The position numbers were made by a program, and so were the translations under genes. A stretch of 64,000 nucleotides of DNA from Karstenula rhodostoma CBS 690.94 (lineage: Eukaryota; Ascomycota; Dothideomycetes; Pleosporales; Didymosphaeriaceae). The notes below the pieces were generated by a model, which saw nothing but the letters and a program-made list of their open reading frames with translations, was not told where the DNA came from and did not search any database. The DNA is taken from positions 1,190,844 to 1,254,843 of the forward strand of contig MU001507.1 of NCBI GenBank assembly GCA_010093485.1. The letters run 5' to 3'. Positions 28,088 to 35,388 of the stretch are shown piece after piece. Numbering within the stretch: the stretch's first letter is position 1; the number at the start of each line of letters is the position of its first letter.

Positions 28088-28726
28088 GCATATTTTTCGA
28101 TTCGAAAGGCCCACCATTTAGAGACTTCTCAAGAATCGGATAACCCGCACTGAAACCGGAGAACCCTGGAACCTTGGAATACAATCCGCCTACGTATCGC
28201 CTATCCTGGGCTAACACACTGTACTCAGACTTCTGTCCTGCCCAGTACGTTCGTACACGTGACCCTGTCCAAAACCGGGATGGGAAGCGATGCTGCACCA
28301 TGACGCTAACCACTGGCGTCATCATTCGCACTAAGCAACGTTTCCATGTATTCCCGCTGCAGTACGGTTGGTCTAGCCATGTCGTGTTCCCCATGCTGCC
28401 ATACCTCCTACGTCATACGCCGTTAACAAAGCCTGCCACTGTAGCTCTCTTGCATATCATGTCTCTTCGCATTACTGCAACCATCTACACCACGATTACA
28501 TCCTTGTGCTAATCATATCTGATCCACTTGCAGCACCTCACGAATCACAGCGATTTGCACACAACATCTTTCTACTGCAACCGCTAAAACGGCGCCCCCA
28601 AAGTTCCAGCTACCCAACCGCCGCGCCGTCGCTTCTCTCGCCCTCGTCACTGTGCTGTCTGCCATCGAGAAGCAGCGCAAGGCGAAAGCAAACCGGGAAC
28701 AAGAGAGCGACTTCGCGGCGCAAGAT
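28088..28726. other. Region before the DUF1989 gene, containing repeat copy 1
   Basis: Contains the first 58-bp inverted-repeat element and the probable 5' leader or first exon(s) of the DUF1989 gene. An open frame without ATG runs from 28523 into that gene, preceded by a branch-like GCTAATC and a CAG at 28531-28533. An upstream exon is therefore possible but could not be placed. Confidence 0.45.
28173..28230 (+). repeat. 58-bp inverted-repeat element, copy 1
   Basis: Aligns without gaps to copies at 31019-31076 (minus) and 58585-58642 (plus): 50/58 and 46/58 matches by hand count. The right terminus ends GTACTCAGAC. The left terminus has diverged from the consensus GTCTGAGTACAAT. It lies about 85 bp downstream of the alkyltransferase relic. 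Confidence 0.8.
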
Positions 28727-30663
28727 ATGTCGGGCGAACTTCAGACGATACCGGCGCGACATGGTGTGGCTACGTTTGTGCCGAGAGGCAGGACGATCAA
28801 GATCATAAACACGTATGGGCAGCAGGTGGTCAGCACGTGGGCATTTGGATTAGCTGCGCCGCCAGAGGAGGGCGATAATGAGGAGGTAGAGGAAGAGATT
28901 GAGGCTAAGGTGGAAGATTTGGAGAAGGAGTTGAGTAAAGGAGAAGAGCAGGAAGAGGGAGCGAACGACAAAGCAATAGAGGTGGAGGAGACAAAAGACA
29001 AGGTGACAGAGGAAGATGCTACCAAGGTCAGCGATAAAGGTCCAGAAGCAAACAAGGAAGAAGGTTCACCCGAGGAAGAGCAGTCGGACAATCCTGCTAC
29101 CAAGCATGGCGAGGGCGCAGACGACCCTCCCGAGCAAGCGCCCGATGCACCTGAAAACAAAAAGTCCGATGGGAAGAAGCCAGAGAAGCGAACATGGTCT
29201 TCCTACTTGCCTTCCATTCCCTACCGCTCCAAGGGTCAAGCTCAGGGCCAGAACAAGACCGATGCTCAAGCGCAGCAAGACGAGAAAGCCGAGAAAGCGC
29301 AAAACGAGGAAACGTCGAAGAAGTGGTCGTCATATCTCCCTACTGGTAAGGGGTTCTCCAGCTATGTACCCAATGTGAAGATGCCGGATACCCAAGGCGT
29401 AGTGAGCGCGTTCAAAGCGAGCAACAGCTGGGACCCGAACAAGAGCTACGCTGAGCAACTGTATGACTTCTCAAAGACACCCGTTGGTGCAGGTACTTTG
29501 GCTGGTATGCTTGCATTCTCTCCCTTGCCGTCACTTCTAGAGTTACATGACTGACTTTGCATCATCTAGTCGCCAGCGGTTCCGGTACAGCGTCATCCCT
29601 TTACGCTGCCTACAACGCCTACACCCAGATCAACCCTTACAAGAACGGCCAGCCTCCTATGGAGTACCTGTCGCTCCCACACACGCGCGCTGCAACATAC
29701 CGTCTCGTCCCTGAAATCAATGACACGCTCCTGACCAACCTCCGTAACCCCCTCATGACGCTCGTAGAGGACACATCGCCAGGCGCGCATGACACCTTGA
29801 CCGCCGCTTGCGACGCCAACATGTACGCTGCGCTCGGCGTCGACAAGCCTGAAGAGCATGGCAGCTGCGCCGAGAACCTGGTGCTCGCACTCCGCGAGCT
29901 CAATGAAAAGGCCGGCCTCAAAGGCACGAAGGCCATTGGTGCAGACATCACGGTGAACATCGCGCCCACGCCTTTGCATCTCTTCATGAATGCGCCCTTG
30001 CAGCTCGACTCAAGCGCACAATCTGAAGGCTCAGGTGCAAAGGGCGCAAAGGTTTCTATTGAAGCGCCGAAGAGCAAGAAGCGGAGCTACGTCCGTTTCC
30101 GCGCCGAGCGAGATATCGTCGTCGTGCTGAGCGCGTGTCCGAACGAGCTTGGACACCAGAACGGCGGGAGGTGCATGGCAGCCAACTTCATGGTTGAAGA
30201 GCCCGAGGAAGATCCCTCCGCGTCTACGTCATCCGCCAAGAGCAAGAAGGGTGCCCCGAAAAAGCTGGCTGCGAAGAAGAAGGAAGACAAGAAGGAGGAC
30301 AAGAAGGAAGAGGAGAAGAAGCCAATAGGTATGCCAGGACTCAGAGGCGGACCTCAGAAGCCTGCTGCGGTGAAGAAGTCTGCTGAGAGGGCTCCTGACG
30401 ACGACGATGATCCGCCAGAGTCGAGCTTGCCCGAAGAGGCCCCAAAGAAGGAAGAAGTGAAGCGCAAAGCTCTCCCAAAGCAGCAGCAGCAGAAGAAGAA
30501 GCCAGAAGAGGCAACGCCGAAGCCAGAGCCAAAAGGGCAAGATGCCGGGCCAAAGGAAACGCCCAAAGCGGACGAAGCGAAGCCAGAGGAGACACCCAAG
30601 CCCAAGAAGAAGCCGAAGAAGCTCGAACGACGCACCGTCACCCCGAAGAGCGAGGCGTCGTAA
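28727..30663 (+). CDS. DUF1989 (urea carboxylase-associated family) protein with long charged inserts
   Basis: Exons 28727..29504 and 29570..30663, 65-nt intron; product 623 aa from the first ATG. The DUF1989 core is split. Its N-terminal strand-rich part (PARHGVATFVPRGRTIKIINT, QQVVSTWAF) occupies residues 3-45. The rest begins at about 255 (YMSLPHT-like YLSLPHTRAATYRLVPEIND) and ends with CPNELGHQNGGRCMAANF near 430. Bacterial relatives sit beside urea carboxylase; the biochemical role in fungi is not established. About 200 residues between the two halves are acidic (Glu/Asp-rich) then basic, with two copies of a WSSYLP motif. The last 190 residues are Lys/Glu/Pro-rich and also disordered. 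The frame is open upstream of 28727 (to 28523) without ATG, so an additional 5' exon is possible. The start is the least certain part. Confidence 0.8.
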
Positions 30664-31121: not shown

Positions 31122-32793
31122 CTAGTTGCAATCGCCCCTTGGAACACAGGTATACGTCGGACAACCGACATCTACAACCACCGTGCTCGTCGTGCACACG
31201 CTTTTCGTAGCCGTCGGCTTCAAGCTTGGCTTCCCGACCGTCGTGATGGTAACAATCGTCTTCTCGATCTCCCTGACCCCCATCTCCTGCGCCTCGCCTA
31301 CCTTGCAGCTCACCAGGTTATGTGGGCACGTAGGCGGGACGCATGGTGGCACGACGGTCTTGGTGACGGTGGGACATGCGCTAGGTGTTGACGTCGGGAT
31401 GTAATCCGTGACTGTGAGCGTCGGAAGAGTCGTGTGTGTCAGAAGAGTCGTGGGATGTTTCTTGTCATCGTCGCGCTTGCCCCAGCTGATATGCGCCGAG
31501 GACGGCGCGACTGGTGGAAGACCAAAGGAGAAGCTTGGGAAGCCGAGGCCGTACGTGGGCAACTGCGCCTCAGCATCGCGCTTTCCCCATGAGAGGGATG
31601 CAGTTGGCGGAACGAAGGTGATTTGGTCGCTAGGAGTCGGCGCAGGGGGGAAAACTTCCGTGGGACCGTCATCCTCTTGTCGCTTTCCCCACGAGACCCA
31701 TGCTTTGGTGGTGGTCTTTGGGTGCCTTGATGATTTCGACGGTTTTGGCGGCTTGATCGAGGCAGTTGGCTTGCCAAGACCATATGACGGCGCGGTGGCA
31801 TCGTGTTCGCGCTTTCCCCAGCTGAAGGAAACTCGAGGAGGCTGAATACCGATAGAGTTCGGGGGTGTAGGTGCGGGAGCACCCGGGAAGCTGATAGGAC
31901 TATCGGGGTCTTCTGGGTCTTCTGGATCCTCCGGGTCGGGAAACTCGGTAGGTTCAGGCTCCTCCTCTTGCCTCTTGCCCCAGCTAAACGAGACTTGAGG
32001 GGGTTGAATGCCGATGGAGTTTGGGGGGGTGGGCAAAGGCCCAGCGGGGAAGCTGATGGGGTTTTCTGGGTTTTCTGGTTCTTCTGGATCATCTGGAAAG
32101 CCTGGGAAATCCGTGGGTTCCGGGTCCTCGTCTTCTTGTCGCTTATCCCAGCTAACAGATGCGCTAACATAGCCATTCGTCGAGGTCCATGCCGGCGGCC
32201 ACCACGGCCACGGCTTCCTGGTTGTCGCCGGGGGTTGAGGATCCCAGGAGACAAAGTAGGACGGAGAGTCCTCCCTCTTGCCCCAACTAACAGAAGCACT
32301 TACATGGCCGTTGGTAGAAGTCTTAGCCGTAGGCCTGGGTGGCCATGGCTTCTTCGTGGTCTTCGGTGGTTTAGGCCCATCCCATGAGATCGAGTAGCTC
32401 GGGGGGTTCAGAGTGATTACATCCGTTGGGGACGGCAGAGGCTCTTCTGGCTCTTCCGGATCTTCCGGGTCTTCAGGCTCAGGATCTTCAGTAGGCACTG
32501 AAGGCCCATCCCAGCTAATGGTAGCCGATGGTTGACCAAGAGAGATCTGGTCGCTGGGCGTTGGTACAGGGTACTCGGGGGCTTCTGGGTCTTCTGGGTC
32601 ATCGGTCGTCACAGGCAGTGGAGCGTCCCAACTGATCGAATAGTGTGGCGGTCCGATGCTAAACTGAGCTTCAGGCAGGGCAGCAGGGATTGCTTGTATG
32701 CTTTCATAGTCAGTGACGATCTCACACATCCTGAGTGGCTCACCTCGTAAGGAGACCGAGCAAAGCAAGCACGGTGTTCCGCGAAGGCGCCAT
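31122..32793 (-). CDS. Secreted repeat precursor with SWGKR units (Kex2-processed peptide candidate)
   Basis: Exons 32793..32744 and 32700..31122 with a 43-nt intron (GTGAGC...GAAAG, branch-like CTGAC); product 542 aa. The 5' exon was found by frame: it supplies a signal peptide (MAPSRNTVLALLGLLTS, then IQA). The mature part repeats a short core that ends Ser-Trp. Seven units end in a Lys-Arg pair, at residues 159, 204, 260, 314, 357, 391 and 426; six read SWGKR and one SWDKR. Each KR is followed by acidic or Gln residues (ED, QE, EH, DA, DD), as in the KR-EA spacer of alpha-factor. Four more cores (residues about 34-45, 74-88, 114-125 and 164-171) read SWD without KR. Spacers are Pro/Glu/Asp-rich and two blocks (IGIQPP..SFSWGKR) are nearly identical. 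The C-terminus (427-542) has eight Cys and Thr/Val-rich segments. Kex2 cleavage would release peptides of 34-56 residues ending SWG once KR is trimmed. It is not a recognised pheromone; no UstY-type or tyrosinase gene lies nearby. Confidence 0.82.
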
Positions 32794-33875: not shown

Positions 33876-35388
33876 TCAAGTTGTTCGTTCAACAGGTGGG
33901 GAGAGCAGCAAATCAAGCGGCCACTTGCGTATTGCGCGAATGCTGAGTTTATCCTGATGTCCTGCGTGGAACATTTCTGTACCAGTCCAAGCAATCATCG
34001 CCGCATTGTCCGAACAAAGGTGTGGCGGAGGAATGACAACCAACACATCGCCATACCCGTGCGCAACGAGTTTACAGGCGAGCACATAGCGAAGGTAGTA
34101 ATTGGCGCCCACGCCGCCAGCCACAACAATAGAGTTCGCAGGAGTGGACTGTAGTGCAAGTACAACACGTGCAGCAATGTGCTCGAATGCTGCGCGCATG
34201 GAGAACTCGGCCATGTCTCGCCGTTCCTCCCGGCTGATATCATGAGCCGAACGTTCTACTTTAGTCAACTTGCCGGTCGACTGATCGTGCTCATAGCGAA
34301 CAGCACGTTCGACAGCGGTCATTAGCCCCGAGAAGCTCATTTCCAAGCTCTTGTTCTTCGATCCGCCTCCTGCTTTAGCAAGCGGTTGATTGAAGGCCCA
34401 TCCCCATCTGGACACATTCCGATGTAATTCTTCTTCGTGATTTTTCGGAACGCAATATTCATAACGCGACGCGAAGTCCTGACAGAACTCGCTGGCGCTT
34501 CTGGGCTCGGACGAAGCTACCTGCACAGCCTTGCCTGGCGGAAAGGCAAATCGCTCCAAGAGCGCACCGTACATAGTATTGCCGGCCTCTTGCAACAGCT
34601 CGGGCGGAAGCACAATGCGTGCTATCTTATCTAAACATTCTCCAACCGCAACGTCGGTCGTGCTTCCCAATACCTCGTGGTTGGTAAGAGTAGCCGAATG
34701 TATCAGGAGGGTGTGGCCGCCGGAGGCAAGAACAGACAGGAACGGGAACTTGGGCGCGACATCAATCTCTCCTTCAGTAGTAGGGGGCCCATCTTGCCAG
34801 GCATGCGGGAAGGTTTCGGACGCATCGAGGGCGGCCACCAAGCGTGATGTCAGCGCATGAGCTTGCATATGATGAACGCCGACAAGAGGTATCTACAACA
34901 CATGAGCGTCAGTGCCTCGACGTCGTCCAAGCAACTCTACTCGCCTTCCAAGCCGCAGCGAGGCCCTTTGCTGTGTCGAGTCCAGTGAACAGGTTTGAGC
35001 GCATGCCAGGCCCCCGTGTGACTGAAATGAAATCCGGACGCCTCTTCTTCTCAGGCAACCTTTCGATTGCCTGGGTCACTAGGTTGGCGAGGTTTTCCTG
35101 ATGAGATTCGAGCGCGGCCAACGGGTGAACACCATTGAAGGCAGCATTGTTGGACGTGACCTTCTCGTGGAAATGGAGCTTCGCTACCGTCGTGGCAGGG
35201 TTTTGCAACGTCTTTGTTTCGAGCACTGCTACAGCCGTGTCATCACAAGATGTTTCAATGGCGAGGGTTACGAGATGCCGTGTTAGAATGGCGGGTATTG
35301 GGCGGAAGGCGCCGTGGTTGGCAGACAGGCGCATATGCATCAGCTCACATGTGCGAATGGTCGGTCGGTGTGATGGGGAATGAGGCAA
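33876..35388 (-). CDS. QRI7: Mitochondrial tRNA N6-threonylcarbamoyladenosine synthase subunit (Qri7/TsaD/OSGEPL1)
   Basis: Exons 35388..34945 and 34892..33876; product 486 aa from the first ATG. In-frame ATGs at 35340 and 35334 would give an N-terminus more like a mitochondrial presequence (MRLSANHGAFRP). The enzyme transfers the threonylcarbamoyl group to A37 of ANN-decoding tRNAs. Signatures of the Kae1/TsaD ATPase-like fold are all visible: LAIETSCDDTAVAVLE, the metal ligands in HHMQAHAL, LASGGHTLL, the helix FSGLMTAVERAV, VVAGGVGANYYLR and CSDNAAMIAW. To keep the frame K-IPLVGVHHMQAHAL, the 52-nt intron (34893..34944) must start GC (AAG|GCGAGT) and end TAG, making it a GC-AG intron. The gene is divergent from the lipase gene at 35591, 202 bp away. 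Confidence 0.92.

Follow-up and report, generated by a model that had tools for sequence, protein, structure and literature searches.

Introduction

The Kex2-processed repeat proteins (KEPs) are an established class of fungal precursors (PMC6339444, Le Marquer 2019; PMC7329392, Umemura 2020), widespread in fungi and with functions that are largely unknown (PMC9769878). In the documented KEPs the repeats are compacted in clusters (Le Marquer et al., PMC6339444), and 22% of the KEPs in Umemura's survey have a UstYa neighbour (PMC7329392). Two proteins of Ustilago maydis show what such processing can yield. Rep1 carries repeats of 34-55 aa that are split by Kex2 sites and give rise to peptides forming amyloid-like fibrils, and Hum3 has 17 repeats of 31-36 aa, 14 of them with putative Kex2 motifs between, followed by a hydrophobin domain (PMC4617103); hydrophobins carry eight Cys (PMC2253510). 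Expression in P. pastoris allowed the detection of peptides from Coprinopsis cinerea KEPs, for example QYKAPSW and forms with pyro-Q (PMC9769878). Among mating pheromones, those of the Pleosporales end in PYG[L/M]P[I/V]G and those of other Dothideomycetes carry two Cys (PMC6339444).

In this work we have analysed a gene that lies in a 64,000-nucleotide stretch of the genome of Karstenula rhodostoma CBS 690.94 (Pleosporales, Didymosphaeriaceae), called here the window, on contig C16. An earlier note, made from the letters of the window, had pointed to a secretory protein with SWGKR repeats as a candidate precursor of Kex2-released peptides. Its observation is confirmed here, and its interpretation is supported in part.

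Results

The precursor gene, read from the DNA, is a two-exon gene of the minus strand (31122-32793, ATG at 32793), which after splicing encodes a protein of 542 aa (Table 1). The database protein P0001 (P171DRAFT_435466 of K. rhodostoma CBS 690.94, annotated as a hypothetical protein) is identical to this translation (100% coverage, 100% identity, equal length), so the deposited gene model has the same splice, in agreement with the small first exon and 43-nt intron proposed in the earlier note. The N terminus, MAPSRNTVLALLGLLTSIQA, is signal-peptide-like, and a start of this kind recurs in 10 of 27 relatives (P0003, P0004, P0011, P0012, P0015, P0017, P0018, P0020, P0024 and P0037), located in P0018 inside a longer protein model. 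Many of the relatives lacking such a start are fragments or have odd start models. The models of P0002 and P0007 begin inside the apparent intron (MIGEIATDCESIQAIP and MLGIVTDLESIRAIP; the unspliced frame of the window reads MCEIVTDYESIQAIP), so that the apparent lack of a signal peptide may be confined to the models.

Table 1. Positions of the precursor gene, its predicted products and the second, short precursor gene (window positions unless a contig is given)
Feature	Position	Strand	Evidence
Exon 1, carrying ATG and the greater part of the likely signal peptide (MAPSRNTVLALLGLLTS, then IQA)	32744..32793	-	DNA reading; identical P0001; similar start in 10/27 relatives
Intron, 43 nt, GTGAGC...CTGAC...AAAG	32701..32743	-	DNA reading; used by deposited protein model
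Exon 2, including stop codon 31122-31124	31122..32700	-	DNA reading
Predicted N-terminal fragment, residues 21-159, ending in first SWGKR (32274-32288)	32274..32690	-	sequence layout
Three uncut SWD cores inside N-terminal fragment	32625-32633, 32508-32516, 32379-32387	-	sequence layout
Predicted Kex2 fragment 160-204, uncut SWD at 32241-32249, end SWDKR 32139-32153	32139..32273	-	sequence layout
Predicted Kex2 fragment 205-260, end SWGKR 31971-31985	31971..32138	-	sequence layout
Predicted Kex2 fragment 261-314, end SWGKR 31809-31823	31809..31970	-	sequence layout
Predicted Kex2 fragment 315-357, end SWGKR 31680-31694	31680..31808	-	sequence layout
Predicted Kex2 fragment 358-391, end SWGKR 31578-31592	31578..31679	-	sequence layout
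Predicted Kex2 fragment 392-426, start DAEAQ (Ste13-like XA dipeptides), end SWGKR 31473-31487	31473..31577	-	sequence layout
C-terminal Cys-rich part, 116 aa, residues 427-542	31125..31472	-	sequence layout, alignment, structure model
Four-Cys module 1, residues 459-482, C-x10-C-x4-C-x6-C	31305..31376	-	sequence
Four-Cys module 2, residues 519-541, C-x10-C-x4-C-x5-C	31128..31196	-	sequence
Short KEP gene, 172 aa by our splicing, MQYRLISVIAVGAFFVNVSG...	G000:C5:1187513-1188095 (L006:4514-5096)	+	DNA reading

The spliced protein holds eleven SW cores, namely six SWGKR (residues 155, 256, 310, 353, 387 and 422), one SWDKR (residue 200) and four SWD without KR (residues 40, 79, 122 and 168), and eight Cys within residues 459-541. 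Every KR of the protein (7/7) sits in SWxKR, and the residues right after the seven sites are, in order, E, Q, Q, E, Q, D and D. The earlier note had given all these counts correctly, with an acidic or Gln residue behind each KR. A chance origin of the repeat is ruled out by 10,000 shuffles of the protein beyond residue 20, in which SWGKR never appeared and SWxKR appeared at most once, against 6 and 7 observed. Across the seven motifs Ser is encoded by AGT, AGC, TCG or TCA and Arg by AGG, CGA or CGC; since the codons vary while the residues stay, the motif is kept at the protein level and is not simply the result of fresh DNA duplications.

The KR sites bound six fragments of 34-56 aa, or 32-54 aa once KR is taken off; the former lengths are those given in the earlier note, which had all of these fragments end in SWG, and this does not hold for fragment 160-204, which ends in SWD and contains two SW cores. 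The first predicted cut leaves a 137-aa N-terminal piece ending in SWG, and the last one a 116-aa tail. KEP repeats are defined by at least three units between KR, RR or KK sites, and here seven KR enclose six fragments ending in SWG or SWD. By a rough rule the repeats make up 18 x 7 / 542 = 23% of the protein, with only part of the seven cores having the full register described below; the Le Marquer pipeline asks repeats to fill at least 15% (PMC6339444). The variable spacers could make the protein fail the Umemura tandem-repeat score of over 0.6. P0001 has no Pfam match at E up to 1, sequence searches of NCBIfam and PDB yielded nothing usable (one NCBIfam row, for P0012, E 0.58, far under the cut-off), and Rfam and tRNA scans of the 64-kb window found nothing.

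One search (7998 candidates scored) returned 27 proteins including the window's own, and an alignment search returned 15, of which only P0037 was new; the long-type set thus comprises 28 proteins, several being fragments. The genera named besides Karstenula are Paraphaeosphaeria, Kalmusia, Paraconiothyrium, Didymosphaeria, Bimuria, Melanomma, Neocucurbitaria, Byssothecium, Periconia, Lophiotrema and Delitschia, all of which we take to belong to the Pleosporales. In the 27 proteins, 164 of 196 KR dipeptides occur as W-x-KR, and the next residue is Q, E or D at 157 of these 164 sites; P0027 has no KR.

Conservation was counted as the aligned cells in which a relative matches the window protein, with gaps set aside, in an alignment of 25 of the 28 long proteins (the fragments P0023, P0026 and P0027 were left out), in which the repeats lower alignment certainty as compared with an ordinary protein. 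In the ten close orthologues (P0002-P0011), W is kept in 99/101 cells, the Ser before it in 95/101, K in 62/63, R in 63/63 and Cys in 76/77, while the core as a whole reaches 1092/1373 (80%), the spacer 1285/1691 (76%, plus 309 gap cells) and the remainder of the tail 722/992 (73%). Loss of the KR sites in orthologues had been named beforehand as an observation that would tell against the earlier note's reading, and the K and R counts show these sites to be retained. Over all 24 relatives the figures are 211/215 for W, 129/143 for K, 134/136 for R and 184/186 for Cys, with 59% identity in the core and 58% in the spacer. It is therefore the Trp and the cut site that are best kept, and the residues ahead of them stand barely above the spacer by identity. 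Individual sites do differ: in the ten close orthologues the second site reads SWGKR (6), SWNKR (3) or TWNKR (1), Trp is lost and KR kept in P0005 (VQDKR) and P0006 (RGGKR), P0009 has one SWVRR, and P0011 a gap behind one SWG. Some sites read WGKEKR or WGRD, for which different peptide ends are expected.

Many cores also share a longer register. In its commonest form the core spans about 17 residues, P-x-[DN]-x-I-x-[IL]-[GQ]-P-P-x-x-[ST]-[VI]-S-W-G; the remaining cores keep just the terminal hydrophobic residue, Ser and Trp-Gly, and the spacers between them vary and have a high content of Pro, Asp and Glu. When 185 cut cores, 100 W[DE] cores and 46 cores of the short precursors described below are aligned on Trp, the commonest residues are largely alike: Pro at -15, Asp/Asn at -13, Ile at -11, Leu/Ile at -9, Pro at -6, Val/Ile at -2 and Ser/Thr at -1 (a typical cut core is PTPPNSIGIQPPQVSFSWGKR, a typical uncut one PTPSDQISLGQPSATISWD and a typical short one PDTIELGKPSTVVTWGK). 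Four marks, namely a hydrophobic residue at both -11 and -2, I/L/V at -9 and Pro at -6, occur together in 78/165 cut, 64/93 uncut and 36/47 short cores, against 18 of the 15495 positions in the long proteins that are not Trp; every cut core (165/165) is hydrophobic at -2. In the window protein 5 of the 11 cores have all four (residues 40, 79, 122, 256 and 310) and the core at 387 has three, and those at 155, 168, 200, 353 and 422 keep the Ser-Trp end without the register. The earlier note's account of the core is incomplete in this respect, as this longer register, placed ahead of numerous cores, is found again in a second type of precursor.

The 28 long proteins contain 95 W[DE] cores without a dibasic site close behind. 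Where the window protein has its four SWD, Asp follows Trp in 33/37 aligned cells of the ten close orthologues and none of these has KR, and in the 23 proteins that have both kinds of core the uncut ones come ahead of the cut ones in 601/691 pairs, a value reached by 0/5000 permutations (550/574 pairs without P0024). This conservation of Asp, together with the mostly N-terminal placing of the uncut cores, leads us to reject the idea, put forward in the earlier note, that the SWD units may be decaying copies. In P0024 (Delitschia confertaspora), cut and uncut cores alternate, and WDKR is found at 5/12 of its W-x-KR sites. As regards the other dibasic sites of the 28 long proteins, Pro follows 19/50 KK and 12/22 RK, versus 5/199 KR. 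A Pro right after a dibasic site should block Kex2.

A search of the K. rhodostoma genome with the whole window protein led to one further locus, which lies on contig C5 (E 2.7e-4) and encodes a short precursor (Table 1). It has six cores; KR follows five of them (three as WGKEKR), and the sixth is a GWGKQ placed at the stop codon. No identical K. rhodostoma protein is among the database matches listed, so the gene seems to be unannotated or modelled otherwise. Nine database relatives, among them hypothetical proteins of Bipolaris oryzae, B. sorokiniana and B. zeicola, all terminate within three residues of a Trp (9/9); five end exactly in TWS (P0028, P0030, P0031, P0033 and P0035), the others in TW, TWGK or TWGKE, some perhaps through contig ends. 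A precursor that stops right after its last core would fit a mature peptide ending close to the Trp. These short KEPs share with the long family the register P..D.I.LG.PS..[VI].W[GS]K, and differ from it in their size (96-194 aa, some maybe fragments) and in having neither Cys tail nor long acidic spacers. With a profile that includes W-G-K-R, 10/10 short proteins score 14.5-50.7 bits (best of 2000 shuffles, 9.5). Once W-G-K-R is left out, 2/10 beat the best shuffle with the cut-core profile (8.0 and 7.9 bits, against 7.7) and 2/10 with the uncut-core profile (9.6 each, against 8.5), and the K. rhodostoma short protein scores below 0. Common descent of the two families is, on these sequence scores, likely, not proven. 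Two more genome searches, in which the best candidates were scored, found no third gene of either kind; a place on contig C14 (P0012 match, E 0.109) has no Trp repeat in its plus-strand frames.

The genome has one match for a Kex2-type enzyme (P_proprotein), three for the Ste13 type (DPPIV_N, one of them partial and with stops), one place with a STE2 receptor gene, and no match for the amidating-enzyme domain PF03712, which is likewise at zero in the control genomes. A peptidylglycine amidating monooxygenase would be expected if the -Gly-Lys-Arg ends marked a neuropeptide-like precursor of C-terminally amidated peptides. Beside the precursor gene, a DUF1989 domain extends over two overlapping frames (28523-30663, plus strand), probably one intron-bearing gene, and a TsaD-type tRNA threonylcarbamoyltransferase gene in two frames (33876-35388, minus strand) lies upstream.

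The tail of the window protein is formed by two four-Cys modules. The pattern in the tails overall is C-x7..15-C-x4-C-x3..9-C. Distant relatives (P0012, P0014, P0016, P0017, P0018 and P0037) have three such modules and a related fourth, with 16 Cys in, for example, P0012, P0014, P0016 and P0017. A genome search with the P0012 tail, in which the best candidates were scored, returned the window gene only. Hydrophobins have eight Cys with CC doublets. P0001 has no CC doublet, so its tail is not a hydrophobin; that candidate is rejected on this count, and the tail is likewise without a Pfam match at E up to 1. The structure model has a mean pLDDT of 40.3, with 492/542 residues below 50, and shows two hairpins in the Cys tail with stretches of pLDDT around 80. 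Such a low-confidence model is weakly compatible with a disordered precursor.

Discussion

Our results indicate that the window gene probably encodes a secreted precursor of the KEP class, as judged from its layout and its predicted processing. We propose that the signal peptide would route the precursor into the secretory pathway, that Kex2 would cleave behind each W-x-Lys-Arg, and that Kex1 would remove the terminal Lys-Arg. The expected output would be the 137-aa N-terminal piece, with its uncut SWD array and an SWG end, six shorter peptides (32-54 aa) with SWG at the end of five and SWD at the end of one, and the 116-aa tail of two four-Cys modules; an N-terminal Gln, where present, may be converted to pyroglutamate. 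Several observations argue against this assignment: with 95 W[DE] cores, many copies of the core would have no cut there; long variable spacers are untypical of documented KEPs; Trp is lost beside a retained KR in P0005 and P0006, and SWVRR or a gap stands at single sites of P0009 and P0011; sites such as WGKEKR or WGRD would give other peptide ends; and by identity the core barely exceeds the spacer in conservation.

What could be the function of these peptides? Ranked from the likeliest down, the candidates would be a secreted ligand, a surface coat and an intact protein. We tentatively favour a secreted ligand, either a signal or an effector, that would be recognised through its Trp end. 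The core is found in short precursors that have neither the long spacers nor the tail, which favours recognition of a specific sequence. The conservation of the uncut SW[DE] arrays suggests in turn that the core may be of use even without release.

A surface-active coat of the wall, as with Rep1 and Hum3 of Ustilago, is possible and in our view less likely. It would share Kex2 processing with the secreted ligand and differ from it in function, the 32-54 aa peptides assembling on hyphae with the Cys tail at the surface. The size range of the peptides is close to that of the Rep1 and Hum3 repeats, and the six smaller peptides, at a predicted 32-54 aa, fall near the Kex2 peptides of Rep1 (about 35-53 aa). 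In five of the six, moreover, hydrophilicity is lower over the last 18 residues than elsewhere in the peptide (for instance GRAVY -0.37 vs -1.64). However, this order is reversed in peptide 315-357 (-1.25 in the last 18 residues vs -0.93), and core GRAVY is below 0 in five of six, so the ends are not strongly hydrophobic. The absence of CC doublets and of a Pfam match in the Cys tail also speaks against a coat, as does the occurrence of the core in the short precursors, which points to a specific sequence and not to bulk amphipathicity.

We consider it unlikely that the product is an intact wall or extracellular protein, whose Lys-Arg would never be cut in vivo or from whose long propeptide only the Cys tail would be freed. 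The uncut arrays would suit such a protein, and Cys is no less conserved than W, K and R, but the retention of Lys (62/63) and Arg (63/63) behind Trp would hardly be expected if cutting were irrelevant, and nor would an acidic or Gln residue after 157/164 sites.

It is very improbable that the gene encodes an alpha-type mating pheromone of K. rhodostoma or a relative of one. The KEP layout, the Ste13-like leaders (at least 39/164 sites are followed by XA or XP) and the STE2 receptor gene would agree with a pheromone, and so would the fact that no PYGxPxG array was found in the genome (0 exact and 21 one-mismatch places, 4/21 read, a result that does not imply absence of the gene). Nevertheless, the units carry neither PYG[L/M]P[I/V]G nor a two-Cys core, and at most sites the next residue is acidic or Gln, without an XA or XP dipeptide. 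Least probable of all, and rejected here, is a dikaritin-type RiPP precursor with cores cyclised by UstYa enzymes: a signal peptide with KR repeats is indeed the layout of such precursors (PMC7329392), but none of the 59 UstYa (DUF3328) matches (exon pieces) in the genome is on contig C16 and a scan of seven neighbouring frames returned DUF1989, TsaD, patatin-like lipase, glycosyl hydrolase 92 and zinc finger, in agreement with the earlier note, which had seen no RiPP-modifying enzymes nearby. The peptides, if released, are most likely linear.

Returning to the secreted ligand, we suggest more speculatively that there is an unnamed family of Trp-ended peptide ligands in the Pleosporales, derived in one genome from two unlike precursors. 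In the long one the core would be presented both as an N-terminal array that is never cut and as released copies, so that a single gene would provide a multivalent binder and free peptides. Conservation of the cut sites, the Trp end and the uncut array extends over a dozen named genera. The minimal short relative in the same genome offers a defined peptide for synthesis and testing, with which simple assays could separate a secreted ligand from a surface coat.

The earlier note had not recognised the repeat from any described family, and our literature searches agree, with no paper on an SWGKR- or WGKR-type repeat in fungal proteins among the titles and abstract openings covered. The core is absent from the motifs named in the sections of PMC6339444 and PMC7329392 that our analysis covered, as is the string WGKR from both main texts; some members of the family may already stand, unnamed, in the supplementary lists of these two papers, and type G-9 of PMC7329392 is a candidate by its genus list only.

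How does the locus compare with the known systems? Like the surveyed KEPs, the window protein has a signal-peptide-like start and units split by KR, and like most of them it is without a UstYa neighbour (PMC7329392); unlike them, it has units of varied length, long acidic spacers, uncut cores ahead of most of the cut ones and a Cys tail. With the ascomycete alpha-pheromone precursors it shares KR repeats and some Ste13-like dipeptides, and its short relatives have the last copy at the precursor end, whereas PYGxPxG and the two-Cys core are missing. KEP 490115 of Coprinopsis cinerea sets a precedent for pyro-Gln and for KEP peptides with a Trp end; the resemblance lies in the predicted Ser-Trp-type ends (there QYKAPSW) and in an N-terminal Gln, which in that system was found as pyroglutamate; it is a likeness by layout only, and KEP 490115 is a basidiomycete protein with seven-residue peptides, an RR site and a Ste13 motif (PMC9769878). 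Finally, Hum3 and Rep1 of U. maydis have Kex2-separated repeats of similar length, but the tail of Hum3 is a hydrophobin domain, while that of the window protein consists of two C-x10-C-x4-C-x5/6-C modules without CC doublets.
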